Assembly (NCBI GenBank): GCA_031763025.1
Contig: JASSKH010000009.1
Coordinates: forward strand, 7,721,805 to 7,785,804
DNA from: Macrocystis pyrifera
Taxonomy: Eukaryota; Sar; Phaeophyceae; Laminariales; Laminariaceae
Reading direction: 5' to 3'
Length of the DNA stretch: 64,000 nt
Shown here: piece by piece, positions 3,101-45,321 of the stretch
Layout of the letters: each line of letters begins with the position of its first letter
How positions within the stretch are numbered: position 1 is the stretch's first letter
Made by a program: the position numbers and the translations under genes
The notes under the pieces: model-generated
Told to the model about the DNA's origin: nothing
What the model saw: only the letters and a program-made list of their open reading frames with translations
Databases searched by the model: none

Positions 3101-3349
3101 CTGTACTTAGGCAGAACCCGCTATCACGTTCTCCTGGTATTCTGAAATCTAGCTAGAGGCCCTATTCTGTCTGCAGGTGCATATTAGTTACCCGAGAACA
3201 CAATATTTTTTCGCGCCACTGTTCTGTACTTTTGGTTCTCTTGCTCTCTTTCGATGTATCATCTGAACGTTTCGTCTGCTGGTTTTTCCTACGGCAACTG
3301 ACACTATAGCTAACGCTTGCCCTTTCGGCAATATTGTCTCCGGGTCCAG

Positions 3350-3631
3350 AACGGTGCTTCCACCGTGGAGACTATATTCGTCGACCCGAATGAGCCGCTC
3401 TTCATCCGAAACGGCCGAGACTTGGCCAACCTCTCATTCACCGATCAGCTGTAAACGGAGGCTTTCCGCGCGGCGCTCATCTTGCTGCTCACACAAGGCG
3501 TGCTTGGGGGCTCTGTCGGGCCCTACACGGAATCCGAGCGTCAGCGGGGGTTTACTACCTTCGGCGAGTCGCACATTCTCACCCAGATGGCCTCGGCCAG
3601 CTCTGCCACGCGCCATGCGTGGTATGCTAAG
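3350..3631 (+). pseudogene. vBPO: vBPO copy 1, exon 6 with premature stop
   Basis: The exon corresponds to the NGASTVETIF...HAWYAK block of copy 2. A tyrosine codon (TAC in copy 2) is TAA here at 3452-3454, about 35 codons into the exon. It also holds one extra codon near 3487. The final Lys, which binds vanadate in the family, is kept. Confidence 0.85.
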
Positions 3632-4787
3632 GTGCGATCTACATGTATGCGGGGGAACACCGGGTCTCGTTTCCTTTCCCGTTTGTGTGCAACTGAAATG
3701 AGTGCCCCTGTGGCGACGATGATGACTGGATCTTGGGAGTATTGTATGTAGCGCCCAACCTGACTACGTAAGCTATGTTAGGTACCGTGGCGGTTGCGGC
3801 AGCTACTGTAATGTGTGAGCGCTGTCAAACCTATGAACGGCATTTCCGCCATGTGACTCTCCAATGATTCTTCAAGCCAATACATGTGGTTTGGGTGACA
3901 TATATTATACTGTATATTGAACGCAGGAACCAGTTCATGGTTGTATTAATCGTTTAGGACCTCACCACGGCGGACAACGCATGCTGCTGGGCACGTCGCC
4001 TGCTCCAGGGAGGAAGTAGTGCACGACCACGTCGTACGGTTTAGGATCCATCTGCTGTAATCCCGGCCGCATGCCGCCACGTTTGATAGCTGTAATCACT
4101 ACAGTAGCACGACTTGCCATCTAATACATCTCCGAATAGCATTCACGAAGATGTCGACTTATCTATGTCTCCCCCCGGCCCACCAACTCATCATAAACGA
4201 TACAACAGTGGCAAGTGCACCGCGTGCTGAGGCCCAAGGCGTACAGTGGCCTCCTGCACAACACGCTCGTGGGGGACGTCATCACCCCGTTGCCGGAATC
4301 CATTCTGAAGAACACGGTCAGTATATGACGGTGCATGTCTACCGCTTGTTCAGAACGTTCGGCTGGGGGGATATACGACGTCGTTGTTTGTAAACCTGGA
4401 GCGCTACGATCGCCTGAACTCGAAATATTGAATACCTGCAGAACTCAGCTGCAGATGGTCCGAAACTGATGTGGCCGCCAAGCGGGTATAGAAGGGAAGG
4501 GAGCAGTTATGGTCGTTGACCTACAGCGAAACGAACGTGCAATATGTCATGTCCGTCGGCACGTATTCGCTGTCAAATGTTTCGTTATCTGCAGCTGGCG
4601 AAAGGAGAGAAAATCATAAACGCCCGTGAGCACTATCGCATGCACCATAGTTGCACGCTCCAGGGATGCTCGATGAGCAACTGATGGCGGGATACAGCCT
4701 ATCACCGTTCCGTGGACGATCACGCGTGGTGCCGCGCTGACGTGTTTCCTGAGTTGTTTGGAACGTCTCACCGATGGACGCTCGCAG

Positions 4788-4946
4788 GATCTTCTCTCCC
4801 GGGTGAAGAAGCACAATTCCGGACAAAACCCAGACGGCGAGAAGACCTTCCTGCTCCCCATGGCGGTCGCTGAGGGCTCTCCCACGCACCCTGCGTACCC
4901 TAGCGGGCATGCCATCAACCTCGGTGGCTACATCACCGCGCTTAAG
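4788..4946 (+). pseudogene. vBPO: vBPO copy 1, exon 8 carrying the vanadate pocket
   Basis: Open throughout and nearly identical to the copy 2 exon. It encodes LLPMAVAEGS followed by PTHPAYPSGHAINLGG. The two His residues correspond to His411 and His418 of the Ascophyllum enzyme; the second is the acid-base histidine. Confidence 0.9.
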
Positions 4947-5483
4947 GTAAGAGCTATCATACGCTGCTTGCGGTGGGCGATTCACTCCTTCTACCCACTT
5001 AAAACGATGAAACAAGACACATCAAGTGTGGTCTTATCACCAGTCCTATATGGTGTGAGAGCAGCGTACACGTATAGCATATCATGCAGCACACGTCTCG
5101 TGCATCTTCTGTGCTTGCGTTAGTGTCCGTGTGCTCCATCCATTGTATCTTCTACTCCGGCTGTTTCCGATTTGCTTCGTATAGTCGACGCTGTAACAAT
5201 AGCATCACTTGGTTTCGAAAATATATGCCTTTGAAGCCCAAAGCACGCCATGAACGTACTTGATTTGGGCCATGGCGATACAACAACATTTGGAAATCAA
5301 TCGAGGATTCGTGCTCGAACCACGATACAGCTACTATGCTAGGCTCTTGTAACGAAACCATTTCTACCCCACCACCGCTGGAACGTTGCCTCTATCCTTT
5401 GGCCTGAGGCGTTACCCCACCCATATCATTTGGCGAGTGCGTGCAGTATCTTAATCCAACGTTCCCCAAATCCTTCTCGGCAG

Positions 5484-5656
5484 GCATCCGTCGGATTCGA
5501 GGCGGGAAGAAGTGTTTCCCCAACCCCGTAGTCTCCAACGACGCGGGGACTGAGAGGGTTACCTTCGTGCCGACCGGAACGGAGTTGCTAGACAAGTGCA
5601 TCGACGAGAATGGCAAGCTAACAAAGGGCCTCACCATCGAAGGAGAGCTCAACAAG
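5484..5656 (+). pseudogene. vBPO: vBPO copy 1, exon 9 with frameshift
   Basis: This exon is 173 nt against 174 nt in copy 2. One base is missing within the stretch encoding GFEAGQKCFP, so the downstream CFPNPVVSND and ELNK residues sit in another frame from the acceptor. Confidence 0.8.
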
Positions 5657-7231
5657 GTGAGAAAACAACAAAAATTGGTTTCGAGAGCACAGGTGGGATG
5701 CGCGGAAAGTGGCGAAGAGTTTTCTTTATTGGTTTGACAAAAAGGCGAAAAATGGCCTGTTTCCCTGCCTGATCAGTCCATCAAATGGTTCGTTCTTCTG
5801 AATCGCGTACATTAGGTATGTTGAGACCACTCCTTCCATCTGCGAGTTAATTCCGCCTGTCACTCGAGACAATCTCCTGGTGCAGGTATCCTTGGCGTTT
5901 AGGTTCATGCCGCAATAGCCCAAAAGAACCAATCAGGATTCCTCTCCTCTACAAGACCACTCGATCGTTCTGCTCCATCTATGGCACATTTATGTGCAGA
6001 TATTTCGTTTTACGAACTTGTCGGGAGCAACTCATTCGCCATCCATTTTACGCCCCTGAAACTTGCATTTCTCTAGAGCAATTGAGGCGCACCGACAGAC
6101 TATAGGACCGCCTCTTTCCTTGATCTGATGCCTGCACATGCCCCCGCCCGTATTATATCTTGGGACACACCAGGTCGCCTCCAACGTGATCATCGGTAGG
6201 TCAATACTCGGTGTCCACTGGAGGATGGATGGCGTCTACGGGGCCCTCATGGGAGAGACTAGCGCAGTCCGTCGCTTGCAGCAGGTGCGTTGGAATTGAG
6301 TGTTGTGTCGCGAATCTGAGCAGTACTATCGATCATGCCTCACGCAACACCATAGCGTATGAGGAAAGCTACACAGCATCCAAAAGGTACTCGTTGGTTG
6401 ATTAGTGTCTATGTACAGAGTCTTTGCCTCTTCTTTACAAGCGTGTTCACTCTAGTAAGAGTCGTCTTTGTGCCCTACCACCGTGCCACCCAAGGCTTGC
6501 GGTCTCGTTTCCCAAACATCACCTTCAAATGACGCGTGAACACCCCGTCCGCTCTTTTGACCCAACCTCCCCGTCGCATCGTCTCGCTGACAGGAGCTGC
6601 CCGGACTTCCGGAGGCTCGCGTTGTTGATGGCGCTAGCAGCGACGATATCCCCCCGGCGACGTACAAGTTCCGCCTTTACAGCGACAAGCAGCTCGAGCT
6701 GTTCGGTTCCAACTTGTACAGGCTGGACGGTCAGCTCTGCAAGGGGAAATACACCGGGGACGACTTCTGCGACGTGAGTCGGTGTTGAATTCTGGCTATA
6801 GTATACAGCTGGTACTCCATTTTGGGTTGTTTCAATATCTTGATCTTTACTGTGGTGGAGTTGCACTACATTCGACATATGGCCGTGGTGTTTTGCTTCG
6901 ACTTACCGTTATGGTAAAACAATATTGTTTCTGCGCATCGTATCATGATGTCTTGATCGCACCCCCGCCATCGTTGGTCTAAGCACCGATTTTTCCACTG
7001 TAGTACACGCATTTTCGCCGGTTGGACTGGCTCTGTTATATTCGCTGGACGTATTTTCAGTTGCATGCTCGTTTCCGCTGCGATACCCAATCCTTGGGCC
7101 CTGACTGCAAGTGTGTACGACCGCACTGTTGAACAGTTGTGGCGCTGACGAACAGGATTCCCTGTTCACGGTTTCCCTCCCCTGCCTTGCTTCAACGCGT
7201 CTCTGGACACCGCGCTGCATCGAATTTCCAG

Positions 7232-7282
7232 GTGATAAATGAGGACATGTTCGACACTTTTGAACATATCGTCGAGCTATGA
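7232..7282 (+). pseudogene. vBPO: vBPO copy 1, last exon (shortened tail)
   Basis: Encodes VINEDMFDTFEHIVEL and a TGA. Copies 2 and 3 carry an extra KHRATFSLH-type stretch before the same Glu-Leu-stop ending, so about 30 nt are missing here without a frame change. Confidence 0.8.
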
Positions 7283-11952: not shown

Positions 11953-12280
11953 ATGATGGATCTGGCGAAGAACCCTCCCCTAGCAGGGCTGGGCCGGGCT
12001 CAAGAGGAAAGTGCCTGAGCAGCGGGTGTGATCAAACGTTGGATCCTCGACGAGTCGGCAGCGGTAGCGGCCACGGCGCAGCTGCGCGTAATCGCGGCGC
12101 TTGCGCTACTGTTCGTTTGTCTCCTTTCCAGTCATATCAACAAGAGGAGCAGGGAGGCTCGGGGGCAGGCAGAGGAGAAGCTTCGCATTGGGAGAGGAGA
12201 TAGGGGATGGATCTTAAAACTCAGCAGCACCGGCGATCTGGCACCTCATTAAGATGTCACTGTGATCGGCTCTGGATACG
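11953..12280 (+). pseudogene. GMC/hydrolase gene, exon 1: N-terminal anchor and start of FAD fold
   Basis: One frame from ATGATGGATCTGG runs to a GTGAGC donor. It encodes a hydrophobic segment (VIAALALLFVCLLSSHI) after a basic KRW, then APH-stop-DVTVIGSGYG, the first half of the Rossmann GxGxxG motif. There are two in-frame stops: a TGA before the anchor and a TAA replacing the usual Tyr or Phe before DVTVIG. The donor leaves phase 1, which fits the acceptor at 18300. Confidence 0.7.
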
Positions 12281-13033
12281 GTGAGCGCACTGGTGGTTTG
12301 CATTGTCGGCAGTTTCGGTTCATTCTCATTTGTTCTCACCCATTACTTGCTGAGCGCGCTGCGCTAATTGTGAGATGAAGCCGCTGTTACAGGTCACGGC
12401 CTATTTCCGCGGTACGTGTGCCGCTGATCGTTCCCAACACCGCTCACATGCACGTCCGTTTTTTGTAAACACTGAATTTGGCCTGGTACCCCCGTGTGGA
12501 CTGAGTTAATTATGGTGCGTGATGAACAAGCATTATTATGCAACGTAGTTTCGAAGCTCTGAAAACTCTTCTTGGGGTTTCAGTGGCAGCTTTCAGCCCG
12601 GTAGCTATATGGGTATCAGCACTGGGATCGCTGCGCTGATCTGCGTCATGTAATGAAGTACGTAAATGCCTAAAAACAAATCATGCAGCGGCAATACTAC
12701 GCCCGAACAGGGACGAACGGCATGCGCACACATGCATATTGTACGAATCGGTCCACTTTGTTTTCGTCGAATTCCGCATGCTGACAACGTAGTTTGCGTT
12801 CGAAATACATTTAGCTTTATCTCTACAGCCTTTTCCTTGACCCATCCGCTGGATTGATGCAGCATATGGTGTGGTGTGACTGTAGAATATGAACGAAGAC
12901 ATCGAACTGCCCGGCCTAAACAAAATAGAAAACGCCAATCTCGCAGGAGCCCTTCGCTTTTGCGAGTGACCAGCTTGCATCTACAATCGTATAAATCTCT
13001 GTTCGCTTCACGCGCTTTTTTCTCTCTCTTGTA

Positions 13034-13083
13034 AGCGAGCGTAGCGGGCTGCAAACGCCGCCCGCGGAGCGAAGCGTCTTGTA
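13034..13083. repeat. GC-rich hairpin repeat, copy 1 of 3
   Basis: The two halves GCGAGCGTAGCGGGC and GCCCGCGGAGCGAAGCG form an imperfect palindrome, followed by CTTGTA. Related copies sit at 57521-57562 and 57713-57762. Confidence 0.7.
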
Positions 13084-14306
13084 CCAAAACACAATATGAG
13101 GCCTAAATGCGTCTCGTGGAAGCGTAGGAACTTCGAGTCCTCTGCGCGCTTCGAGGCCCATTCATCGACGCGAGTGGACCTGTAGGTTTGCGTGTTCAGC
13201 TACTGTCCCGCCTTCCTCGATCGCACCCGGTAAGGGCCTGCCCGCTGGCCTGCTGAATTGGCCAGTGCGGGTGGCCTAAGCACAGATCTACGCTAAAATG
13301 TCAGGACGTCGGCATGCTGGCCTGTTTCGAAACATGAACGTTTTTCCCAAGGCGCGAGCACCGCACGAGCAAGAATTCAGAAATCCATAGAACCGGTACT
13401 AAACGAAATATCTCTGTTTATGGGTTATCAGTACATACGACAACCGATAACAACTCATCGGCTTTAGAGAAACGTACGCAAAATATTTACTAGGTACAAA
13501 AGTATTGCATGATGTGTATGGCATGAGAAAGCTGTAATTTAGCCTGCTAGGATCCACCGAAGGGGGGTCGTGAGCCCACGCGGGACATTTTATCGAGGCA
13601 AGCAGCAGCGGGCAGCTGGAAGCGTCGCAAACAATGTAGTAGTATGCTGGTGGCTCAGTTATCGTAGTAGTACTGGTATGAGGAATATCAGTGCTATACC
13701 TTGTAAATAGTGGTATAATGACTACCAGCAGAAGTAGTAGTTGTACAGTATGAATGCAGTCACAGGTTTATTTACTATAGGGGTGAGAAGGGACAGCACC
13801 CGTGCTGTGTCGTGGGTGGACGTCGCACGCACAATTGGATGATAACGAAACTCTCAATGTGGCGGAGACAGTTGTTTCGTGCGCGTCGTTGGTAATTATA
13901 TAGCTGGAAATCCACTGGATATGCCACCTGACATTTTTGTGCATTACTTTTATCGGGGGTCGATACACGATCATCGACTTCGCCTCCTGCCGACCGCTAG
14001 TAAGTACTAAGAACGTTGTCCTTCCGACTACAATATTTCGTTAACATACCTTCAACCACAACAAAATGAAGCGCACCCCTCTGAAGAACCGTTGTTATTT
14101 GCGGCCTCAGCTTAGTCTACCACACCTACACATGTCACCAATTGCGCGAAAACGTGGAGCAGCAGCGGGGATGCCCCCACCACGTCCGAGCCCCCCTTGA
14201 ACGTGTTCGGCCTATACCATGTATCTTTGTAGTATATGTCTGATAGTGATCGAGAACTTTAAGTTGCAGAATATATATATATATATTTGGTACGTACCAA
14301 CGGTAC

Positions 14307-14760
14307 AAGATTGCCGTCGGTAGTATATAGGTGCATGTCCAATAAGCTCCCCTGGGAGGGATTTTTCGTGAGCCGGAAAAGGTGTCGAACGGTCCAACGA
14401 TAAGTCCTTGAAACTATGCTGCGCCGTGAGAGGAGTCAAAAGACGCTCCGCACTGAAGCGGTACTACACTGGATTGGCGTCGGTATTAGATGCATCGTGA
14501 TTTGCGCCCCCGGTGGCGCACGGATTTTTCGTGAGTCGTGAGAGGTGTCAAACGAGCATTCCGTGAAACGGGTCAAAAGGCTCTCCCCACTAAAACAGTA
14601 CTAGATTGACATTGGTAGGAAGTTGATTGGCTGTATGCGTCGCCGGTGGCACACGGATTTGTTTCGTGAGCCGGGAGAATTTTCCAATGACGATTCCGTG
14701 AAAATATGCCTCGTCGTGGGAAGGGTCAGAAGACGCTTCACACGAAATCGTACTCGTAAG
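14307..14760. repeat. tandem repeat array, three diverged units of about 135-163 bp
   Basis: TTTTTCGTGAGYCG recurs at 14362, 14525 and (as TTTCGTGAGCCG) 14661. Each copy is followed by GTGTCRAACG-like and GGGTCAAAAG-like blocks and preceded by a CGTCGGTA or GGTGGCRCACGG block. Spacing is 163 and 135 bp. Confidence 0.7.
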
Positions 14761-15640
14761 TAGTGTTTCCAGTCCACATTTACGAATCAAATAAAGGTAT
14801 CACGTGAGTTCTACGAGCAGCAAGATACAATGGCAAACATCTAACCGGCTCGTTTTCATACGTGTCAGCGGCACTGGCGTCTCAACCAGTACAGCTATGA
14901 GTCGAGCTGCAATTTTCAACTTCGCTTACCAATGTGTATGGAAACAGGAGGTGGATGTCAGCAATTCTGACTTTGAAACGCGATACCTCGCCCAAAGCTC
15001 GAAACCGAGGGAAAGGACCTTCGAAGTATCGACTATAGTTGCCGAGAGGCATCCAGCACATGTGCTGGTTGGCATAGTAGAGGGCCTGGATTAGATACTC
15101 AAACAAGCAAACAAGCGAACGACATACTGGCGTCCGCATCCGCAGACCCTAAATAACGCTTTAGTTAGCAGGTATACATGTATTCGGAACCTCAATTTGG
15201 ACCTATTTTAGTAGGTTTTCAATTGCTCCTTCAACTGATTATGTGACAAATATTAAAGTTCCATAACAAGGTGCCTACACAGCTGTAGCCTTGCATCGAT
15301 ACTTTGCGGACGAAGAGTTGATTGGTTTCCGAGGTCGGTGCGTTGAGGTTCGGGGGGGGTATAGGCGAAAAACATGACATTTTAGGATACCCGCATTACG
15401 TTGTTGTACCCATTAGTCTGCTGCTGAGTACGAGTATGCTAGTTGATTTCGCCAAAGAGGGAAGGGATACCGTAACAAACCATCGCACACATAACATGAA
15501 AATGTCTTACCTGCATTGCGAAGCCCACACACACACGATTCTATAAATCAAGTGGAAATTTCTGCACACTACGAATGACAAAAACTCTTGAATAAATAAT
15601 AAACGCAACGACGACCAACTGTATCCCGGGACGCAGAGAA

Positions 15641-16070
15641 CCAACACTGGATTTATAACTTGAACAAATGACAAGTAGTTGAGAAAACGTCTAAGTGGCT
15701 AACTTCTTCAATTCCTAAAATAATTCAAGTCTGACAGGCTCAAAAACTATGCACTTCTTAACAACGACCGAAAACACGCACCAGGTACTTTTAATAGAAT
15801 CGAACCAGTGTAGCCGAAGGTACGGCAAAAACAATCTTTCGAAGCGAAAAATATAGAATCCGCGGTAAATGTATTGTTTTTGCTGTAACTCCGGCTGTAC
15901 TCGTTCGAATTTTTCAAGTGTAAGTGCGTTCGGTTGCTATTGAAGAGTGCATAGTTTTTGAACTTATCAGATGTAAATTATTTTTCGAATTGCAGAAGTT
16001 AGCCGCTTAGACGTTTTTTTTCTCAACTACTAATAGTCATTTTCTCAAGTTTTAATATCCAGTGCACGGT
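15641..16070. repeat. 430-bp palindrome (foldback element)
   Basis: Arm 15641-15835 is the reverse complement of arm 15873-16070 with scattered mismatches, around a 37-nt loop. Shared blocks include GTAGTTGAGAAAA, AAACGTCTAAG, GGCTAACTTCT, AAAAACTATGCACT and GCAAAAACAAT. It has no coding capacity. It looks like a non-autonomous foldback or MITE-type element; no clear target-site duplication was found. Confidence 0.8.
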
Positions 16071-17569
16071 AGGCACTATCTAATTTTCGCCTTTTGTAAC
16101 CCTTTTCTGCCTTGGATGGGGGCACCCCCCCCCCCCCCGTCGGCCTTCGAAACGGTCTTCGGTGTCGTTGTGGCTTCAAGACGAACCGGAAGTAAAAGCG
16201 ATCAATAGCTTCGACGCAGTATATAACAACAGCAATCCGTGCGTACAGTGCACCATTACTGCACCGCATGCGCCCAGGGCACCAATAACGCCCTTGCCAC
16301 ACTGTCTCTGGCGCGCAGTCCATGGCGGTGGTTTCGCACTCCACACTCCACACTAACTTCGCAGCCTGCTGCCTATACCCTCAGCGTTGGATCGTGTGAA
16401 GCTTCCAGCCATTTCGGTGGAAAATATAGAGATATCCATCCACACAGATTCTTTTCACCGTGCGCTTCGCGGTTTAGCGTACGAATACTCATAGAATAGG
16501 ATGCCTATGCGTACGTTCTAGTCGCGTGAACGGCCGTATAGGCGCGCCCAGGGAGCTGAGATCATGCGCTGTAAGCAACGTTTTGTACTTATGGCTTCCT
16601 GGCGGAAAATGATACTTGGTGCGCCACACGTTGCGGCAACCGCTACAAATGCTAGAGAATCAACATCTTACTATAACCGTGATGCGCGTGCCTTGTTTCT
16701 CGTCCATGGTCGCCAGTAGCTCTTCACGTTCACTGTCTGCTCTATACCGTAATGGCTTTGGCCTGATAGGCCATGCGATTTCAGCTTGTTACACAAGGAT
16801 TTCCATGATCGAAAACATGAAAGAGCCATATAGAAACTGTTTAGGTTTTTACTCGGAACGATTTGGAGTATTTCTACATTTGAAATTTTGAAACCCATGC
16901 AGCAAACGACATACAACACTGATCTAATGTGTAAATTTCCACTCAACGTATAGCAATTGCTTCATGGGGTTCAAGAATTATTACAGCAATCGAACCATTG
17001 CACATTGAACCAAAAAAGAACGCCGAGGCTGGTCGCTTCCTTTTTCATCCGCTGGTGTCGAGATAAACCATTGCGGGGAGATGAATATATCGACGAAAAT
17101 AGCTCAATGCACGCCTAACCTTAACCCATCGGCGAACAAAAAGAACGACATATTGCTTTTTCGTTTGTTCCAACCGCACATTCTGGTATTTTGATATGTA
17201 GTGTCATTCATAACCGTTTGATACACGGCAAGTTTTAAAGAACACGGGGCAGTTGAGGCCAGCTACCTTCCAATCAAATGGCTGAAGTAACGCAAACGAC
17301 GGGAGCCATCTTCCACTAAAATCACGGTACTACCGGGAACCACGGGAACCACGTGAAATCACGCCGCACAAAACCGAGAAGAAAAAAGGCACAGCTCGCA
17401 CACCCACAGTCACGCGACGATTGACCTTCGATCTCGAGATATAATTCACCCACCGTCAACGAGCTTGGTACCGGGCAAGGCCATCGAGTGCAAATTATGG
17501 CCTGGGAGGTATAATTGGAATCCGTGGTCTAGGGGGCGAGAGGTTGGCCGCGGCGTCCTTTGTTCTTCG

Positions 17570-18034
17570 TCAAAACTTTCAAAAAGTTCTGTGTCATGCC
17601 AACGGAGAAGAATCGAGAGTTTTTGTCGTCTGTTTTCTACACACCAGCTGCCGAATATGTTTTTAGTAGACGCCTGGCCCACCCACGCCACATATCACCG
17701 ACCGAGGTGTGAGAACTGTGAAACTAGTGTGAGTCGGAGCCTCTAACCAGCGCGCTTCATTCAGAGGTCGTGACGTAATCGTTGGGTTTGTCGATCGATG
17801 TCAGACCTGAAAAAGGGTCCATTGTTTGCCATCGGAGAGGGGTCTAGATTTTTTGTCGTCGGTCTTGTACAGACTAGTGCTAAAATGTTTTTTTTTATCA
17901 GACGCCTGGTCAGCCCACGCCACATATCACCGACCGAGGTGTGAGCACTGTGACACTAGGCTAGGTCGGAGACCTTAACCAGCGCATTCCGTTGAGATTT
18001 CGTCACGGTGTCATTGGTTTTGTCGATCGATGTC
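17570..18034. repeat. tandem duplication, two units of about 231 bp
   Basis: Both units carry CACGCCACATATCACCGACC, a GAGGTGTGAG block, AACCAGCGC and end with TTTGTCGATCGATGTC (17787-17802 and 18018-18034). Divergence is about 15-20 percent by eye. Confidence 0.75.
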
Positions 18035-18300
18035 TGCCGAGGGTTATCATAAGAGTTGGCTCTAGTCGATGGGAATAACTATACACTGCTCAAGTACCTG
18101 CCAGAACACGGGTATTATATACATTGCGCGGCGCTCAATTAAAGTCCGCGAAAGCTGTCCCGCGACGTATAAAATTAGCCTGCTTGGTAAATGTTGTATT
18201 TTTTGCTTTTGCTTGGGATCAACTCGTATGGCCAGCCTAAATGGGTTATCGTTCTGATATTGTTAATAATTTGTGTATTATCTTCCGTACGCGGACTCAG

Positions 18301-19175
18301 GCGCGGGCTGCGCAGCTCGGCGCTTTGCTCAACCGACCAAGAAACCGGGGGCTGGTGGTTCGCGGCGTTCTTTGAGGGTCGCGGTGTTTGAGCATGGCCG
18401 CGAGCTGCTTTCAGCCTCGTTTCCTGAGACGGCTGATGCCGCGCTGGAACATGTTCACGTGACACTGCACCACTAGAACGGCCCTGGAGGTGTGACCAAT
18501 TCCCGTACGCCCATCGAAGCGGAGTCCTGCCTCGCGCTCATGGACATACGCGCCTTCCACGACGTCGTTGTCATGAAGGGATATGGACCCGGCGGTACGT
18601 CACTTATGAGCGCAAACGTCATCGTGGAGGCCGACCAGAAGATCTACAACTTCGACCGCTGGCCCCAAGTCGTCCTTCAAGACTTCAAGGCGAACGAAAA
18701 ACGCTGGGTGCCCCATGGATCAGTTCAACAGGGCACGGGAGGAGATCGGTGCTGCCACCTATACCGACAACTGGCGGCAGGTCACCAATATGGAAGCTCC
18801 CAAATATGCAACCGCACTTGTGAGAAACGAGGGCCATCACCAAGTTCGACTTGGGAAAATAACGGCATCGCGGTGAGCTTCGCGGTTCGGCATGCACACG
18901 AAGACCAGCTACGTGCAGCCGCCGTGCAGCCTATGCTGTAACTGCTGCTCGGGCTGTAGCACTGGCGCCAAGAACACAGTCAATACCAACTACATTGCCA
19001 ACGCGTTTGCGCATGGAGCAGGCATCTCCACCGACATGATGGTCACGCATGTGGAGAAGGCATCTAAGCGCGCTGAAGGCACCCATCGCTACGTGGTGTA
19101 CTACAAGCCCATCGACACGCTGGCCGAGCCTAACATCTGGAGGGCTGCGGGCAATCGCTTTGTGCTGGCTGACAA
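18301..19175 (+). pseudogene. GMC/hydrolase gene, exon 2: FAD-binding and substrate-domain region
   Basis: The phase fits exon 1 so that GYG joins GAGCAARR. Readable blocks in order are VAVFEHGRELLSASFPE, FHDVVVMKGYGPGGTSLMSANV, FDRWPQV, MDQFNRAREEIGA, the cysteine-rich CSLCCNCCSGCSTGAKNTV, and FVLADK at the donor (AA|GTAAGC). The blocks lie in more than one frame and a TAG at 18474 interrupts the first, so the exon is broken several times. The Cys-rich CxxCxxCCSGC stretch is typical of the long cholesterol-oxidase-like branch. Confidence 0.8.
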
Positions 19176-19601
19176 GTAAGCTGCTATATGCTCTTTTCAT
19201 GAAAATGTTTGACTATCATATTTGACTATCGTGATAAAGGCCACCAGTCGGTACTTCCAATCATATCCGATTTGCGCGTCCACCGGGTAATGGTGCCGCC
19301 ACAGCAGCTGAATGTAATCAAGTTGCAGCTGCGTATTTTGTGTGCATGTGTGCGCGTTGCAGCGTTCTTTCGTGCGTGCGTGCATGCGTGTGTGCGTACG
19401 TGTATGTCGCGTGCGTAGAGTATGGCAAACCACACCGTGCCTGGCAAGCGTCTCATGTAGCGTGACTGCAGGAGCAATGTGTGCAACAATCGCAGGCTTG
19501 ATTGCCACTGAAATATTAACGTAGCATATTTTGTCTGGAACTTACCTACCCGCCCGTTTATGAGTATTGTTCGGTGGTACTGTATGTGTATATGCTGTTA
19601 G

Positions 19602-19735
19602 AGTGGTGCTTGGAGCACGATCGCTTGGGTCCACCAAAATCCTTCTACGGTCATCAGGCAAGCTACCCTTGTCGGAGAGGGCGAACGACAACTACAGCGG
19701 CAACGGTGACTCGCTTGGCGCCGCCACGGGCATCA
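19602..19735 (+). pseudogene. GMC/hydrolase gene, exon 3
   Basis: It opens after a TGTTAG acceptor, in phase with exon 2, giving DKVVLGARSLGSTKILLRS and then LPLSERANDNYSGNGDSLG. This is the family block in which the FAD-fold strand is followed by the GNGD motif. The exact donor is not clear; the frame stays open to 19773. Confidence 0.75.
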
Positions 19736-19894
19736 CATGTACGATTTGCAAACTTTTCGTCAGTGGTCCCTGATGACGCACGTACTTGCGCTGTTCAGCG
19801 TAACCGCTCCAACCTGGGCAAAGTGAATCAGAGCCATCGATAAGGGAATCAATGGGACTGATGATGCTTGCGGTATACCTTAATTTCTCCGCGA

Positions 19895-19948
19895 CGAAGT
19901 GTTGAAGCACTTTGCGGGAGCCGAAGTGTTGAAGCACTTTGCGGGAGC
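19895..19948. repeat. 27-bp perfect tandem duplication
   Basis: The unit CGAAGTGTTGAAGCACTTTG plus CGGGAGC occurs twice in a row without change, in the intron after exon 3. The inner part (GTGTTGAAGCAC) is itself a near palindrome. Confidence 0.9.
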
Positions 19949-20479
19949 GGCCTCATGTTGAGGCTCAGAAGTCGATTGAGACGATCAAAACATTTGAAAT
20001 CCCAATGATACTGACGAGCGTAAGTTTTTTTGGGTGTGACGTAATTGACTTATCAAGTCGTGCATTGAAACACCGTTACTTCGTTGTCGAGTGGTACTCA
20101 GTACGCGCAGTACCGTTGCCACAGTATAAACAATATGTACAATAAAGAGCATGAGTAACACAACCCCCTTATATACTTACACTGTTGCACCAACCGTCCA
20201 AGATCCTGCACCCGGCCGCATTATGTGACCGCTTGGTCTAAAGCCAATCCCTACTCTAATACTGCAATAATGTCACTGCCTCGCTGTTGGAGGCGTTAAT
20301 TATCCAAGCGAAAGCGCATGAAAGGTACTTGAAGTGCTCAAGACAGGTGCATAACGTGAGCGGATTGATGCACATGTCCCTTAATGAACAATTGATGCGC
20401 GTTATCGAGGTACTACTGAGTCATTCCGCTTGACACACCGTTGCTCCACATTCGATCCATCACACTCAACTGTCTCTTC

Positions 20480-21204
20480 CTGAATTGGGATCAAGATAGG
20501 CGACGCAACAACACTGGGTGGCGTATCGAATTCAGCAACTACTTGTGTGTCATGCTGGCGTGCATAGAAACCCAGGTTTCCATCTTTGGCAATAACGCCA
20601 GTGCCAACGCGGCGCAAGACAACAACTTTGCTGAAGGGTTCTGCTTCACCAGCGTCACCAAAGTCGTAGATATCGAGGACCTTGGCAAGGATCTCAGCGA
20701 GAAAAATGACTCCGTGGTGGAAGACTACATCGTACTCGGAGTGTTACGCGACGTGTCTAGCTTCGTCGCCAGCGTACCCGGCGTGTTGCGGGGCGTGTCC
20801 AACATCGCCGCCAGGGGCAGTACCTTCATCAAAGTGGTGGAGCACAGCCCTCAGTACCACTCCATCCGGCATCCAGACCGCTTGTATGAACCGGCGCGGC
20901 GCCGGCTGCCACGCGTGCGACGCGGTCCCAGCGACCACATCTCGACGTTTCCGGTCATGTCTCACGACGACACCAGAACGACCGGCACAATGTCCCCCGA
21001 GCGTGACAACGATGGCGACAAGCACCTGGAGTTGAGTTGGCACAACGCATCACAGAACCCTGCCTAGGCGCACTTTGCGGCGATGCTCTAACGGCTGGGT
21101 GAAGCGCTCGAGGAGGACGTCTTTGTAAGCAACCCAGCAAAGCACGCGCTACAACGGGGTTTATCCGTCCACTCCCTTGGCGGAAACTGCATGGGAAACA
21201 ACAG
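20480..21204 (+). pseudogene. GMC/hydrolase gene, exon 4: middle and GMC C-terminal motif
   Basis: Open from about 20441 to 21067. It holds NNTGWRIEF, DIEDLGKDLSEK, then STFPVMSHDDTRTTGTM, HLELSW and, after TAG and TAA codons in frame, EALEEDVFVSNPAKHAL and GLSVHSLGGNCMGNN before a GTAGGT donor. The last block matches the conserved VHPLGGC motif of GMC-type cholesterol oxidases, whose His acts near the flavin. The start of the exon is approximate. Confidence 0.7.
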
Positions 21205-21538
21205 GTAGGTCCCCAGCGACGGTTTCAAAAGTTGCTTCGCGCTGAAATCTCTCCTCGAAATACCACCCGTAAACTGCCAAAATTCCTGCAACGTGTGTGT
21301 TCAAGTGGTTAGAGTGTAGTAGGTGTTGTTACTCTTCGATTGTGTTTCACTCTATATTGCAGACGGATTGGAACTTGGTATGCGCCGTGTGTGACACTGG
21401 CAGCCGATGCAGCGTTCAAAGCAACGAACACACCGATGGCTCATGGTTACCGTACGCGAGCAAGCATGCTTCAGATTAGACTCAGGCTGCTGCTTCCGTT
21501 GTTGCTGCATTCAAACAACTATCATGTGCTCGAAACAG

Positions 21539-21710
21539 AAATGACGGCGTGGTAAAGTATTCCGGACAAGTTTGTGATGCAGACGCCGTAAACGGCACCG
21601 ATGTGCACGCGGGCCTCTACTGTGTGTGCATGGCTCTATCGTGCCAACCAGTCTTGGTGTCGATCCCCTGCCGACCATCACGGCACTGGCCGAACGTTGC
21701 ATGAGCAGGG
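21539..21710 (+). pseudogene. GMC/hydrolase gene, exon 5: GMC C-terminal block
   Basis: The acceptor CGAAACAG is in phase with exon 4 and gives NDGVVKYSGQVCDAD and GTDVHAGLY. After a small insertion and loss the family ending HGSIVPTSLGVDPLPTITAL is read in another frame. This block (DGSxxPxxLGVNP) closes the FAD-binding domain in the GMC family. Confidence 0.8.
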
Positions 21711-22218
21711 CCGCTAGCGAGCCCGATCTTACGTTAGCAACCCAATCTCACGCTTGACGAAGATCAGGTGTGTTCCATGACACGCAATGCGTGTGCGATC
21801 GGTGTCACGTTACACTATTATTATTGTTTGGTGGCATCAATAATTCGGCAGGAACATGTTGCAAATACTGCAACAAAGCAGGTGCGTACTCCAGAGCGCA
21901 TTGTTTGTGCGTACTACGTCTGACGTGCCCAGTGAAGCATACAAGCAAATCCACCGGCAAAGAAACAAATAGGCTCGGGGAAGAGCCTTTGCTGCATATT
22001 GGGAGCAATTACGATGTGGTAGACAGTGCCACCTGACAAAAACGTATCATGCCAACGTTGCACGTCCGCTATTGACCGATGCAAACGTTGCTGCCGGCGC
22101 CTCTCGTTCATGAAAATGTTAGAAATATGTATCTCGTCGAATGCAGGTGGTGCTGCGGGTGCAACTTCGGCGCAAACCGGCCGGGCGTGTCGAACCTCGC
22201 CTCACAGAAGCGTGCACC

Positions 22219-22470
22219 ATGCTCACCTTCACGGAGAGCATGGTCGGCAGCGTGTAATGTACGGCGAGCAGCGACATCGACATCGATGTCGAGACCGAAT
22301 TGAGCTTTGTACTGGTGCTGACGTTCAAGAGCCTCGCGAACGTAACGGCCGACCCCGCTACTCCGACAACACTCAGCGGCACGGTGTCGTGGGGCCAGCC
22401 CTGCCCCACCGCGAGCAGCGGCGACTTTAGGCTGTTTGAGCTACACGAGTCGGCTGTGGTGGGGAGGTGC
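22219..22470 (+). pseudogene. GMC/hydrolase gene, exon 6: linker beta-domain
   Basis: Reads MLTFTESMVGSV, a TAA, then LSFVLVLTFKSLANVTADP, LSGTVSWG and GDFRLFELHES. This follows the FTExMxG / TGTVxxP / FNLF pattern of the domain between oxidoreductase and hydrolase in the fusion family. The 3' splice site is uncertain (a GTGCAT follows GGGGAG at the end). Confidence 0.65.
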
Positions 22471-23151
22471 ATGGTGTACAGTATCGTCATGGTGACCACA
22501 GCGGACGAAGTGATAATGTGTACCTAGAGAATGTTATCCAATCAGTGCCTATATCAAGTTTACCACAACAGATGAAAGGTGACAGCACAGTAGTACTGCG
22601 CAAGCTCGATCTTGCAAACATCTAGCGTGAACTTAGGTGAATGTTGCCGTCAACCAAGCCTGCTCAACATGTTTCCAACTGCACGAATGCTGTCCTAGAG
22701 CAACATCAATATTTGTCCAAGAGAGTCTATCGTCGGTGGTTAATTGACAGATGCACTCGATATAATTCTCCGGAACGATGTACAGAAGGCAACTATTAAT
22801 AGAAGCCAGGCGACAAACCCTTAGCGCACACCGTAGCGCCCAACCGTTTATTGCGTCTTGCTACGGGTCGGCAGACCCCCCCTGCCCCCGCCTCGTGTTT
22901 TTATGTCAGCGGTGTTGTTGGATGCAGCATGACCTGGTACTGCAGCCTCAGTCGCGTTAACAAGCAGTACGCTATTAGCCAAAATGTATCTGGTCACCCT
23001 TGTTCATCGCCGTTATCGTGTGTCATTTATCGAAGTCATGCTAATCATCCCACCAGTATGCTGACAGCGTCTTCTGCCTCTACTGTTCGACAGCTATCCA
23101 TAGATACATTGTTTTCGGCTACAAGGCGGTGTAGCGGCGCCTCTACAGCAG

Positions 23152-23990
23152 GTTTCTGCCCCTGAACCTCTGGGCCGGCCCCACCACCCTCAACGTTACC
23201 ATCACCAGCCAGGCGAACACCGCGCAGGAGTGGGGAGGCACCCTGGGCATCCGCCTCACCGATCTCTTGGCCCAGATGGGGCGCTGCGTGCGTGGCGCGT
23301 GGGTGAGCTCGCTCGTCGCTCCACCTAGACAGAGCTTGTTGCCTTATTCAGCATCTTCGCAACGCAGGCGTGGCGCATGCACTAGCGGCTATGAGAATGC
23401 ACTACCCACGGACGGCCTCTTCCAGCCCATGCAGGTCCACCCCAGCACCAACGCGAGGTCGCCGACAAGGTCCGACCCCATTGGTCTGTCGCACGGCACA
23501 GGGGTGTCATCCGAGATAGTCTCACTCGTCACTGTCGACGTCAATCTCGTGGAGCGCCTGACCGCGTACGGTCTCGACGTCTTTATTCCCGAGCCGTGCA
23601 TGTCACCTGCCGTGCCTGAGGTCGTCAGCATCCAGAGCGACACCTTCGACGTGGATAGCATCGCGATAAAGGACGTGCCGGCCAAGGTGGCCGATGCGTG
23701 CGCGCACTTTGCGTGATGACACCATGGCGACGTCAACGATCTGCATGTCAACATTCATGGGCACTGCGTGGGCGGCCCGGCCTTGGCCATCGCCCTGCTG
23801 CACGACGATTGCGCCCAAATACGCTCGCAACTGAGAAGGGTGGTCTTCTCACAGTTGTCCATCTACTCGTCGCCCTCGCCGACTAACTTGCTCAAGGCGA
23901 CGTTGTGTCTTGCTGGGGTCCTGTCCATTTGTCTCTGCTCCTCGTGCTGGCGGTCGGGGCCACAGGCGTCGCTCTGTTCACTCGGTTAGC
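23152..23990 (+). pseudogene. GMC/hydrolase gene, exon 7: start of alpha/beta-hydrolase
   Basis: After a CTACAGCAG acceptor the frame reads FLPLNLWAGPTTLNVTI and LGIRLTDLLAQM, then the hydrolase oxyanion region LSHGTGVSSEIVSL, VDVNLVERLTAYGLDVFIPE and FDVDSIAIKDVPAKV. Two adjacent stops (near 23714-23719) follow. The same frame then continues with VNDLHVNIHGHCVGGPALAI, the nucleophile elbow, and SQLSIYSSPSPTNLLKA. The elbow holds Cys where most esterases have Ser; Cys is also usual in this fusion branch. Confidence 0.75.
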
Positions 23991-24169
23991 TACTACTGGT
24001 ATATCTGCTGCGTGGTTGATCGTGCTTGGAGGCGTCGCGATCGACGGCTCCCTCGTGTGGTGGGCGGTCTCGTGGGTGTGCTGGCGGCTGGGTGGCACTG
24101 ATCCGGGGTCGTACCACTCACCACCTTTCGACTGATCCCCGAGCGCGTGGACCTGGGTGCTGACGCGCG

Positions 24170-24640
24170 GCTCTCCACAGAGATGGAGCCAAGTCTGCTG
24201 TCACTGGGATCACTTCACTCTACGGGTTGGGTTATCTACCAGCACAACAATATCGACCACGACACGCCTTATATCTTGCTTTCACCCTTCGAATTAGGTG
24301 ATTTCGCCTCTTAGCCCAGCTGGCCGCGAGCTGCCGCCACGGTTGCGTGGTCCCATGTAGCGACGCCGTCCTTTGGAGATCACGAGATTCGTGTTCAGAC
24401 GCATGTTCTTTTTCTGCTTGTGCACGGGTCGACGAACGGCTGCTGGTCGACCGGTGGCACACACAAGACCGTGGCGACGCCTAGAGAGATCGCCCAGGCC
24501 CCTGGAATCAACGTCATCCCCAGCATATACCAGATCCATTACATAGCTGCGTATGGAGACCTGGATTGCATTTTTGGGAAGGCGGCCGCGGAGGTATTTT
24601 TCCCGTTCTTTTCACTTTTTCTTTCAGTGAGCAAGACGAC
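24170..24640 (+). pseudogene. GMC/hydrolase gene, 3' part: hydrolase cap and C-terminus
   Basis: Two blocks are readable in different frames: ITSLYGLGYLPAQQY (cap region) and VLFLLVHGSTNGCWS, THKTVATPREIA, then IAAYGDLDCIFGKAAAEVF. In relatives the last block is YGHxDCIFGK with the catalytic His; here it is Asp, so the hydrolase site would be dead even without the stops. The end of the gene is approximate. Confidence 0.7.
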
Positions 24641-28718: not shown

Positions 28719-31061
28719 TTGCACCGGTAGACAAGGCTGTGGAGGGAAGCGTCGTAGACGGAATTTGCCAGGCGATGGCAGATACTAAGAAAACAGTGAC
28801 GAGCGACCAGAACGCCAGGAAACTACAAACTTAGATGCAAAGCATGGAGGTCATGTTGGAATACGGGTACATCCGTGACCAACGGATCGGATCTTCGAAC
28901 AGTAGTAGCCCACAGGTCGAACGCTAGAAACAAATTCGAGCGGAACAAACCGGGAGTGAACCAGAGGCGTGCAGAGAGTCGACAAAAAGCACCAAAATCG
29001 TACTGCATTGACGGCCAGGTGACTCCGTGTGTGCTCGTCAGTTGGCGTCGGGTTCGTTCACAATCTATGGGGGAAAAGCATTGCGCGTGTCTCTACAGGT
29101 GGCTGGGACTCCCCCCCTGCATAACGTGGGCCTAAACAACTTCAAGTGGAGATGTTGAACAATGTGGCAGACCCCAAAATATGTCGATGACTTCTCCATT
29201 CGATACGCCTAGTGATGTGCTACAGTACATGGATGAATGTCCCCACAAAAAGAAAATTTTGTTCACATTCTGCAAGAAGAGGGGGGGGGGGGGGGGGGGG
29301 GCATCTGCGTTTCAGACGAAAATGTCTTACCTATCGCAACTGTATCTACGCGAGGGAAAACCGCATTGCCAATGCCTGAGGGGAAAAGTAAGAGAATCAA
29401 AATCCTGGCATGTTTGTCGAGCAAACCAGGTTTGAGTTCTAGTTTTGTTTTTGCCACTCCTTGGACGTCGGTGCCTACTTGGTTTAAACGCCAGAGATAT
29501 ACAAACGTGCATCGAACACAACGTCGCACACACGGGTGTGAGCCTTGTGGAACACATCAACTACATACTGGTTGTCGAGTCGGCGGGGACACAGCAAGCA
29601 GAAGGACCTCAATTGCCCGGATGTGGCGATTCGTACGACCCGTATGTACGACGAGCACATGTGACGCGACCACTGCACACGCGTCGACGATTAGGCCTGG
29701 CAAGTGGAGGCGGAGGGAGTGGAGAACGAGTTGAATCAGAAGCTGATTAGGGTCGAATCATCAATCACCAATTTCCAGCTTTTATATACCAGAGCACCAA
29801 CACTAAACCAGCAGCACGAAAATATCAACACCTCAAACAACAGCGCCGAGAGCGAACGCGAAAACAACGCTAATTTCAACTTCGATTATAAAGGTGTAGA
29901 GAGCGATTTGAGCATTTCCATTGTTTGGTTCGCGTGTGAAGAGACATATATAGGAAGACGTTTTGATGTTTTGTTAGTCATAAGAAACTTCATTTATTTC
30001 TCTGTACCAATATGCACACGGTTCAACAAAACTCGGGGCGTAGCAAGAAACTGGAAGGCTTGTCCACGGTGGATTTCTTACATGGAGAGGGTGTCTTTTC
30101 CCCAACACTAGACAGCTTTTTTTAACGTAGAAAAACATTAAGGTACGTTCGAGTTTGGCTTCTTCCATACCAGGTACTTGTTTTCTTCACTTGTGAAATG
30201 AGATGAAAGTATAGTTCTGTTTTTTTTCAAAATACACTGCAGTTAGTAATTCTATACCATCTAATGATATACACATACATACTTGGTATAAAGTGTTTAC
30301 CTGGTAGTTCGTATAAGGTCAGATATTCGAGGATAGATGATGATATTACTTGTCGGGTGAATCTCTCCTCGCACGAGAATGCCTCAGAAAATGCGTGCCC
30401 TACCACAGCATACATAGAGACGTTTCATGATTCGCAATGGGGAGACCAAAACAACGTGACGGGCAGGTAGTGAGGGGCCAACACTACTGTACAGCTGGAA
30501 AAAAAGACCTCGTGACAAAGCGGCAAACAATCGGAATCCTTGAGCGATTGATCACGACGAGCTGCCGATTCAATTGTACCATGGAACCGAGCGAATCGGC
30601 TGCATTAACAGCTATCAGCCCTCCTGTTAGGGGAAAAACTGATAACAGGAGTACTGTGGCGACATTCATAGTATAATACTATTATGTTAGTATAATAGTA
30701 CTGTTGGTAGGACCATAATTGGCAGAGGTAGTACATTAGTGTATTATTATTAGTAACAGTAGCATTGTAGTGTACATTACCGTAGAATTTTTAGTATATT
30801 GGTGGTACCGTACCCTTCCCGTTGCCCTTACCCTTGCGCACTGTACGTACTCATCCCCTTACGCTTCTTTGGTTGTAACTCAGATCTGGCGTCTCAACAG
30901 CACGGCTCTCAAGTCACCGTCATCTCGTATGTGGTATGGTACTGCGTCGAATGAGGCTGAAAGCGTGTAAATGACCTGGGTTCAGGTATTGGGATCGTAT
31001 ATATAGTACATGGGAGGCGTGCTTAGATGGATAAACAGAGGTTTTCTCAGCGAGGCACGAG
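28719..31061. other. loop between inverted arms; no recognised gene
   Basis: Holds a pure G run (29281-29301), fragmentary open frames that continue the basic stretch of the left arm, and an AT-rich zone at 30.66-30.79 kb with small palindromes (AGTATAATACT...). No motif identifies a family. The plus-strand frame at 29704-30111 is Asn/Glu-rich. Confidence 0.5.
29281..29301 (+). repeat. poly-G run, 21 bases
   Basis: An uninterrupted G homopolymer. Similar long G or C runs occur near 16125, 47211 and 59900. Confidence 0.95.
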
Positions 31062-31594
31062 CTTGGGTCTGTAGCCAAAAGATACCAAGCCGTGGAGGTT
31101 TCAGTGTAATCGCATGTGTGAGTGGAGCAGTGGCCGGGGATCCTGTGTGATGTCCCCTAGCCACCTGGCTCGTGGTCCGATGAGGATCACTCCGTGATAA
31201 TACAAGCTCTAAGAACAAGACTTACTGAGTGCGAGGCCTACCAAGCCGTGGAGGTTTCAGTGTAATCGCATGTGTGAGTGGAGCAGTGGCCGGGGATCCT
31301 GTGTGATGTCCCCTAGCCACCTGGCTCGTGGTCCGATGAGGATCACTCCGTGATAATACAAGCTCTAAGAACAAGACTTACTGAGTGCGAGGCCAGCGAG
31401 ACTGGTGGAGTCCCTCGCTGGAAGCCCTCTTGCTGATATCATCTGGCAGAGGCCATAGGTCTCAGTCTCCGCGTGCACGAAAATTTATGGAGCTGCTTTT
31501 CTTCTATCTCTAAGCAAACAACAATGCCAACGAGTACCGGCTTAATAGGCAAACCTATCCAGGGATACAAAGTGTCCCGACTTTGATCTTAACA
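31062..31594 (+). repeat. short direct repeat A, split by an inserted solo LTR
   Basis: The outer parts (31062-31069 and 31462-31594) match repeat B at 32717-32863: both begin CTTGGGTCTCAG and end GGATACAAAGTGTCCCGAC...GATCTTAACA. Without the insertion the unit is about 140 bp. Bounds TG...CA would suit a very short LTR, but no target-site repeat is seen. Confidence 0.6.
31070..31457 (+). mobile_element. solo LTR of the 40.8-kb Gypsy family, with internal tandem duplication
   Basis: Starts TGTAGCCAAAAG and ends GAGGCCATA, nearly identical to the LTRs of the element at 40795-45553 but in the opposite direction. A 156-bp segment is present twice in a row (31083-31238 and 31239-31394). It is flanked by GGTC on both sides, a 4-bp target duplication. 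It is a young insertion into direct repeat A. No internal region of the element remains. Confidence 0.9.
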
Positions 31595-31732: not shown

Positions 31733-32716
31733 ATGCCCGATGGTAACCAGAGGGAGTACATCCGATTGCACGCTTGTGCGTAGTTCCACCATTGGTTCGG
31801 GGTCTAATCCGCGTCTATACGTTTGATCTTTTTTCCCATGCGTGCCAGTTCCTGTTAATGCTCTTCCTTAACGCTGTTTTTGCCACGTGGGCCTTAGGTA
31901 CCGGCTACGATTTTCTTCCCTGGTTTTTCTACGTTATTCAGATCGTTGTTGGAGCATGTTCTGCCTGTTCATCTCGTCGTACGACTTGAAACACACCTCA
32001 CTAAACTTCTCTCTAGCATGTCTTGCTCTGTCACCCTCGACGAACCTGCAGTTTTCATGTCCATAAAATCATTCTAGGTGTTTCCCATGGCGACCAGAAT
32101 GTCGTAAAGAGTTGTCTTCCCCTCGATGTTGAATCGAATGGCTACACGCTCCACAAAGGTTAGCGGTTCCACAATAGTGTCAACCATGTTGTATTACTTA
32201 AAGGCACATAAGTGGTCGTCCCTAAGGACGTAGAAAAACAAGAAATTATGTATAATAGTGATTCTTCAGTCGAACTAGGCGTGCCTGTTGTACAAAACAA
32301 AGAACTCGCTCGAGTCAAATGTGCAGCACAGGGCAAGGAAAAGGTAGGTCGAAAAACTGGAAGGAGGAGCTGAAGTAACGTCTACGAAGCATCGGGTGTC
32401 GACAAGAGGGGGGCGTCGTGTACAGCGGTTTAGGTTTATTTGGTCTTGGTGAGTGTATGCATTAAGGATGGTTGCATTTCAGAAAAAACGGCAATTACGA
32501 TATATAGAAGTACCTGGTAGCGGTTGTGTACATTTCGTACGCACATACATTTCGCCTGTGTTGTATCAATCTACCGTAGTACCACGTAAAATGAACACTT
32601 CAGTAATACCAAGTACCCGGGTATGTGGCAATGTTTTTCCAGAATACATTTTTCTCATCTTGTGCACGGAACGTTGTGTGGTATTCAGCGGTTTCGGCTC
32701 ACTTGACCTGGTTAAT
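31733..32716 (-). repeat. right arm of the 1-kb inverted repeat
   Basis: Mirror of 27762-28718. The outer edge stops exactly where direct repeat B starts. The inner edge lies about 140 bp after the end of repeat A. So this arm, unlike the left one, is bracketed by the two direct repeats, which suggests that it is the internal part of a small repeat-bounded element. Confidence 0.75.
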
Positions 32717-32863
32717 CTTGGGTCTCAGCCTTCACGTGCACGGAAGGAATAAAGTACCTCTTCTTCTATCTCTAACCAAACTACACACGTGAGTGCCAAC
32801 GAGTACCGGCTTAACAGGTGACCCTGTCCAGGGATACAAAGTGTCCCGACCTGGATCTTAACA
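32717..32863 (+). repeat. short direct repeat B (147 bp)
   Basis: Partner of repeat A. Shared blocks are CTTGGGTCTCAG, CTTCTATCTCTAA, GCCAACGAGTACCGGCTTAA, and CCAGGGATACAAAGTGTCCC. Divergence from A is modest. Confidence 0.65.
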
Positions 32864-35159
<2,296 letters not shown>

Positions 35160-40695: not shown

Positions 40696-40794
40696 AGTCC
40701 TGCGCTACTGTACAGCAGTAGCACAGTACTGCTGTAAGAGTACGGTATAATGATCACGATACAATACATACTCGTAGGCTATTATTGTGGTCCT

Positions 40795-41026
40795 TATGGC
40801 CTCTGCCAGATGATATCAGCAAGAGGGCTTCCAGCGAGGGACTCCACCAGTCTCGCTGGCCTCGCACTCAGTAAGTCTTGTTCTTAGAGCTTGTATTATC
40901 ACGGAGTGATCCTCATCGGACCACGAGCCAGGTGGCTAGGGGACATCACACAGGATCCCCGGCCACTGCTCCACTCACACATGCGATTACACTGAAACCT
41001 CCACGGCTTGGTATCTTTTGGCTACA
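40795..41026 (-). repeat. 3' LTR of the Gypsy element
   Basis: On the minus strand it begins TGTAGCC and ends GGCCATA. No difference from the 5' LTR was seen. Confidence 0.9.
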
Positions 41027-41104
41027 GCACCCCCAAAGCGAGTTCACTCGACACGAACGAGCTTGACAAAACCAAAAAACCAAGACGAAATCGCATGCGG
41101 CACA

Positions 41105-41434
41105 TCACAAATCAATGCTGAACTCTGAAGCAATTTTAATCTTGAGCGCACGGGTCATCCGTAATTTGCGCAATTCCTTCACGACGAATTCAGGCGCAGC
41201 AGAATAAATCGACCGCAAAGACTCCCACGTGCGCTCCTCTGCTTCGAAACCATCCCAATCGACCAAGACAATCACCTCGTTGGCATCATCTTCGGCCACA
41301 TGCACCAAAGCATTCATGCGGCATTCACCCTGCGCAAAGGAATGTTGGAAAACATCCTTCAGATCAGCGGTGACGTTCAACGTCGCATCCGCATAAAATC
41401 GTAAACGAAGGAAACAAAGTCGGCGCCACACCAC
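41105..41434 (-). CDS. retroelement part: chromodomain-like C-terminus
   Basis: Contains VLVDWDGFEAEERTWESL, the aromatic-plus-TWE pattern of chromodomains found at the end of chromovirus integrases, followed by PEFVVKELRKLR. In such elements the module directs insertion to marked chromatin. Part of the fossil at 40795-45553. Confidence 0.6.
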   Translation of the reverse strand: MVWRRLCFLRLRFYADATLNVTADLKDVFQHSFAQGECRMNALVHVAEDDANEVIVLVDWDGFEAEERTWESLRSIYSAAPEFVVKELRKLRMTRALKIKIASEFSIDL

Positions 41435-44177: not shown

Positions 44178-44219
44178 TTGATTGCCACCACGGCCACCGC
44201 GCCCGCGTCCATGGTTGAA

Positions 44220-45114: not shown

Positions 45115-45321
45115 AATCCACAGCAGTCCACCTGGACTCTACTGTAATAACGGAGAAACTGCCGCCTGACCTGTGCGTCCTCCAGCTCCCGGAGCGTCCT
45201 CCCCTGCTGTGCGCTTCAAGCCGTTTCGATCCGTCCAACGGGCCAACTGCCTTCCCAGCTGTGACCCAATACTCCGCAGCCGAAAACTCCTCCAACAGAA
45301 GTTCCGCGAATATCTAGATAT

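Follow-up and report, generated by a model that had tools for sequence, protein, structure and literature searches.

Streptomyces cholesterol oxidase, an enzyme of the GMC type (PDB 1b4v), has a GMC fold whose His and Asn active-site motifs align with those of the bacterial relatives considered here, but it carries neither a β-barrel nor a hydrolase; the lysosomal and gastric acid lipases (6v7n, 1k8q, and 1hlg), which match, over the whole domain, the predicted hydrolase fold of a bacterial relative, lack a fused oxidase. The closest known proteins are bacterial fusions, exemplified by Azospirillum oryzae WP_149201188.1, Bernardetia WP_338815766.1, and Rhizobium WP_063474201.1, that are colinear over ≈1100 residues and unite a GMC flavin oxidase with a Cys-rich loop, a small β-barrel, and a lipase-like hydrolase with a Cys elbow. 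Our literature search found no title or abstract opening on such a fusion, and as far as that search shows the type is known but unstudied. Here, we describe a relative on the + strand of a 64,000-nucleotide stretch (the window; positions 7721805–7785804) of contig JASSKH010000009.1, from a brown-algal nuclear chromosome that is very probably that of Macrocystis pyrifera. The kelp locus is a colinear fusion of the same three domains in the same order and is not a new system; it differs from the bacterial fusions in its introns, stops, and frameshifts, in the loss of the GMC Asn and the hydrolase His, and in sequence, with an identity of 27 to 33% to the 67 bacterial rows profiled below. With good confidence, we regard it as a pseudogene, probably unitary, of an intron-bearing single-chain GMC oxidase (cholesterol-oxidase type), β-barrel, and Cys α/β-hydrolase that decayed in place, and for its ancestor we infer a bacterial origin and a role in lipid-ester metabolism.

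To obtain bacterial references, plasmids were searched using the hydrolase exon (window 23135–23713) as query, and four records emerged with proteins annotated “GMC oxidoreductase” or “alpha/beta fold hydrolase.” From these records, three intact fusions of 1120 to 1169 residues (P0001, P0002, and P0003) were used as tblastn queries against the whole window, with rows above 26 bits considered. Together they match the + strand from 18300 to 24623 in the order of the protein (best E value 3e-10), with one further row at 12238–12282 from P0002 only that is weak on its own (27.3 bits, E 0.15), as are some inner rows at the locus (27.7–28.5 bits). Rows of similar strength occur off the locus at 29015–29080 (26.2 bits) and 32597–32923 (28.1 bits), and the case therefore rests on order and on the strong rows. 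Two strict patterns retrieved 212 bacterial loci encoding a relative; these were ordered by similarity to a query headed by an Azospirillum protein, and the best 80 were retained. We built a profile of 67 bacterial rows, comprising the three plasmid proteins and 64 full-length open reading frames (ORFs) from these 80 loci (one Azospirillum protein being present twice), and aligned it to the region using a purpose-written spliced aligner that permits GT-AG introns only. The kelp locus scores 412 bits; 12 controls run with the same aligner score 28.2 to 38.6 bits, these being the reverse complement of the region, eight other window stretches or strands (some share sequence with one another, and the first with exon 1), and three mononucleotide shuffles. 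Of the two families proposed by a first-pass annotation of this DNA, a Pfam scan of two of the three + strand frames matched the oxidase alone and below the cut-off, GMC_oxred_N being the sole match at E 7e-4 and 19.8 bits against a cut-off of 23; P0001 to P0003 pass both GMC models (PF00732 and PF05199).

The locus could instead consist of two neighbouring genes, one for an oxidase and one for a hydrolase; among the best 80 bacterial loci, most of the cyanobacterial ones and both of the Nitrospira type do encode the two as separate ORFs. This arrangement is nonetheless very improbable for the kelp. Residues 681 to 917 of P0003, which run from the barrel into the hydrolase, align in one frame to 23165–23869 (25% identity, E 7e-6, with the linker poorly matched), and barrel and hydrolase share kelp exon 7; because a single alignment crosses this junction, the locus is one gene, although no single row from P0001 or P0002 spans it. 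An intron interrupts the junction between oxidase and barrel, and the case for that link is therefore one of order and spacing, with the barrel following the oxidase as it does in the fused proteins. Motifs of both enzymes are recognizable. The Cys-rich loop, CxLCGDCxSGCNxGAKNT in the bacterial consensus, reads QPPCSLCCNCCSGCSTGAKNT in the kelp, with the four invariant Cys kept and G, D, and N (invariant in the 67 rows) changed, and the hydrolase elbow HCxG is present as GHCVGG.

The kelp locus encodes no working protein. Seven stops lie inside tblastn alignments (12250, 18474, 21065, 21089, 22255, 23714, and 23717); the spliced model crosses the first five and two others (18874 and 24299), evades 23714 and 23717 through frameshifts, and contains 12 frameshifts in all, of which we trust most the one near 21630, since the conserved LYVCDGS motif shifts frame there and leaves no space for an intron. 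The oxidase keeps its active-site His and has Asp in place of the Asn found in Streptomyces cholesterol oxidase and in 67/67 bacterial rows, and the hydrolase keeps its Cys and has Asp in place of an equally invariant catalytic-type His. Of the 173 profile columns that show at least 95% identity among bacteria, the kelp sequence covers 168 and retains 110; the poorest bacterial row retains 94%, the columns having been defined from these same rows. Lacking both the intact frame and the full catalytic set of the bacterial family, the kelp locus is a decayed relative rather than a working member. It could be argued that the gene is alive and its lesions are assembly errors or misread introns. PacBio reads err mainly by insertions and deletions, and modelled frameshifts other than that near 21630 could be short introns. 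A passage in PMC10498591 gives the giant kelp assembly as PacBio-based. The lesions, however, comprise in-frame stops of all three kinds (TAA, TAG, and TGA) and lost active-site residues, and the same window holds an intact 1057-residue retroelement frame as well as a pair of haloperoxidase exons with 2, 2, and 11 differences at the first, second, and third codon positions across 84 codons (11/15 at third positions; the first nine codons were excluded on account of a stop in the second copy, which lies outside the homology). This exon pair looks, from its substitution pattern, as if under selection; with the intact frame, it indicates that the sequence is good and the decay real, and a living gene is scarcely credible. 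The first-pass annotation had proposed a GMC FAD fold with a Cys-rich loop, a β-domain, and a Cys-elbow hydrolase in one gene, which the ordered tblastn rows, the profile alignment, and the barrel-hydrolase row bear out, and its reading of the gene as decayed agrees with the seven stops and the active-site losses in both enzymes.

A dead duplicate of a gene still alive elsewhere in the genome is a further alternative, and an unlikely one. The genome search works exon by exon with few candidates retained, so that a copy might be overlooked, and the flanks of the locus carry duplicated haloperoxidase segments. We searched the kelp's own genome (537,376,219 bases in 223 contigs) with P0001 and with the kelp Cys-loop exon. 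P0001 gave four matches, all exons of this locus, and since the decayed copy itself was detected at E 4.9e-8, an intact copy should have been found with a higher score. The Cys-loop exon matched only itself, and self-comparison of the window revealed no second copy of the exons among the matches listed (at most 60 rows per program). The locus is thus likely, though not certain, to be a unitary pseudogene, and the living paralogue envisaged by the first-pass annotation did not appear in these searches; residence in a nuclear genome, also proposed there, is supported for a brown alga, and the introns and the chromosomal setting make contamination very unlikely. Other GMC genes are present in the kelp genome. 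L084 (G000:C192:3514953-3515615) belongs to an ordinary GMC oxidoreductase with an intact, intronless frame of 550 residues, and L086 and L088 (G000:C211:17862634-17866556, − strand) are pieces of another that include a Rossmann motif and the sequence RGCVDCGSCMHGCVSGSKRS, which is reminiscent of the Cys loop; we take this gene to resemble long-chain alcohol oxidases.

The spliced model comprises eight exons and seven introns, in keeping with the spliceosomal introns noted in the first reading of the sequence. The exon 1 region (12019–12280) is an open frame with a hydrophobic stretch followed by the start of the GMC Rossmann motif (LAPH-stop-DVTVIGSGYG, the stop being the TAA at 12250); homology covers 12223–12280 only and is weak (27.3 bits), and the part proposed as a 5′ anchor (12019–12222, with LRVIAALALLFVCLLSS), which is continuous with exon 1 and follows a stop at 12016, is without homologue support and unconfirmed. 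A 5′ splice site, GTGAGC, at 12281 opens intron 1 (inferred; 12281–18300, 6020 bases, phase 1). Exon 2 (18301–19175) encodes the remaining flavin adenine dinucleotide (FAD)-binding part and the Cys-rich loop, and is interrupted by a TAG at 18474 and, with less certainty, by a TGA at 18874. The junction of exons 1 and 2 is convincingly genuine, as the Rossmann motif GSGYG ends at the GTGAGC donor and resumes 6 kb on as G-AGCAARRFA. Exon 3 (19602–19738), recovered by both tblastn and the spliced model, encodes a GMC strand and helix (VVLGARSLGSTKILLRSS..NYSGNGD), and exon 4 (20576–21204), poorly conserved in its first half, the substrate-binding part up to the active-site His motif (LSVHSLGGNCMG), with stops at 21065 (TAG) and 21089 (TAA). 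The GMC C terminus lies in exon 5 (21539–21732; GSIVPTSLGVDPLPTITALAERCM), where the active-site Asn to Asp change falls at 21662, close to the frameshift near 21630. Exon 6 (22147–22544) holds the first part of the β-barrel, with a stop at 22255 (TAA), and exon 7 (23135–24033) runs from the end of the barrel into the hydrolase, with the Cys elbow at 23759–23776 (Cys at 23765) and two consecutive stops (TGA TGA, at 23714 and 23717) that are in frame with the tblastn alignment. Exon 8 (24181–24608) encodes the C-terminal part of the hydrolase (VLFLLVHGSTNGCW ... AYGDLDCIFGK), with the invariant His changed to Asp at 24558; a P0002 row extends to 24623. Because the aligner permits GT-AG introns only, such borders are built into the model, and independent support comes from the gaps that separate one homologous piece from the next and from donor sites, GTGAGC and GTAAGC among them. 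Introns other than intron 1 span 147 to 837 bases; a passage in PMC4421812 gives a mean intron of 1,057 bp for Saccharina japonica. Intron 1 contains repeats, among them a 420-base stretch (15645–16064) that is 73% identical to its own reverse complement, like a fold-back element, and a direct repeat (17597–17802/17827–18034).

Among the best 80 of the 212 bacterial loci, and using domain profiles built largely from the rows counted, 67 ORFs carry oxidase, barrel, and hydrolase; 13 carry oxidase and barrel, four barrel and hydrolase, seven the hydrolase alone, five the barrel without oxidase or hydrolase, and 16 one or more oxidase matches only. The fusion had been described at first as mainly actinobacterial, which these loci do not support, only 5/80 having actinobacterial titles; other titles name alpha-, beta-, gamma-, and deltaproteobacteria, Bacteroidota, Acidobacteria, cyanobacteria, Nitrospira, Firmicutes, and Planctomycetota. 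Both scanned members of the five ORFs with a barrel alone are patatin-like: in a Nitrospira and a Desmonostoc locus (L054:9431-11032 and L064:10135-11721), the same barrel is found on patatin-like phospholipase ORFs adjoining split oxidase and hydrolase genes.

What the living ancestor did may be approached through its bacterial relatives. The predicted structure of the Azospirillum relative (predicted local distance difference test score 87.9) resembles, over its first ≈564 residues, GMC oxidases, cholesterol oxidase among them (≈25% identity), and over residues 797 to 1143 human lysosomal acid lipase; the barrel alone gives weak structure matches. From these two folds we infer an ancestor able to hydrolyse a lipid ester and to oxidise the alcohol so released. 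Its lipase-like half would have hydrolysed the ester (or thioester) of a bulky lipid alcohol and its flavin half would have oxidised the freed hydroxyl to a ketone with release of H2O2, with the barrel as a putative lipid-binding or spacer module; the gene itself would have come from bacteria, and in the kelp it carried spliceosomal introns and then decayed in place. By analogy, the oxidase half may have worked like a cholesterol oxidase, though it is not classed as one, as P0001 to P0003 reach 146 to 158 bits in the NCBIfam cholesterol oxidase family NF058674 against an equivalog cut-off of 850. The oxidase fold matches fungal alcohol oxidase, fructose dehydrogenase, and choline oxidase with equally high scores and is thus not specific for sterols. 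The nucleophile is Ser in lysosomal acid lipase and Cys in PHA synthase; the Ser in a GxSxG elbow that marks acid lipases is absent here, the nucleophile being Cys in 67/67 bacterial rows and in the kelp. In P0002 and P0003, the hydrolase part has weak NCBIfam matches to PHA synthase (E 4e-5 to 3e-4), which make an acyl-transfer role a serious rival: the hydrolase half would then be a PHA-synthase-like Cys acyltransferase or thioesterase, and the oxidase would act on another lipid or terpenoid alcohol. The Azospirillum gene adjoins a metallophosphoesterase, and five of the ten bacterial neighbour proteins scanned are phosphoesterase-like or PhoD, which also favours this rival; we consider it quite possible, if somewhat short of an even chance, beside the lipase-oxidase role set out above.

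A more tentative and rather doubtful scenario is that brown algae or their stramenopile ancestors took from bacteria a single-chain capacity for cleaving lipid esters (perhaps steryl esters) and oxidising the alcohol with production of H2O2, added introns and perhaps a membrane anchor, and that the giant-kelp lineage then lost it altogether, leaving one fossil in a haloperoxidase-rich region whose enzymes use H2O2. The locus documents a bacterial-type fused lipid enzyme and its loss in a kelp nuclear genome, a loss that could be dated through other brown algae, and it points to a widespread bacterial fusion, with a relative at all 212 loci. Its interest is moderate, lying in brown-algal gene gain and loss and in this pointer to a bacterial enzyme, the kelp locus having no function to exploit.

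The fossil gene lies between two copies of a haloperoxidase duplication. Segments at 2631–7272 and 48592–53410 are direct copies in pieces, 72 to 83% identical, and 61675–64000 is an inverted copy of 52637–54940 (80%). They carry exons of vanadium-dependent bromoperoxidases whose best PDB matches are 5aa6 and 1qi9, presumably Ascophyllum enzymes. Kelp haloperoxidase clusters are described in a passage of PMC11765636 as rich in transposable elements. The window holds a long terminal repeat (LTR) retroelement at 40794–45553 (− strand), whose 1057-residue frame encodes reverse transcriptase, RNase H, and a zinc knuckle and which we take to be Ty3/gypsy-like; its LTRs match at 233/233 bases, which indicates a recent insertion, and related LTR pieces lie at 31065–31457. 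An uninterrupted (GA)n array of 335 bases occupies 34084–34418.

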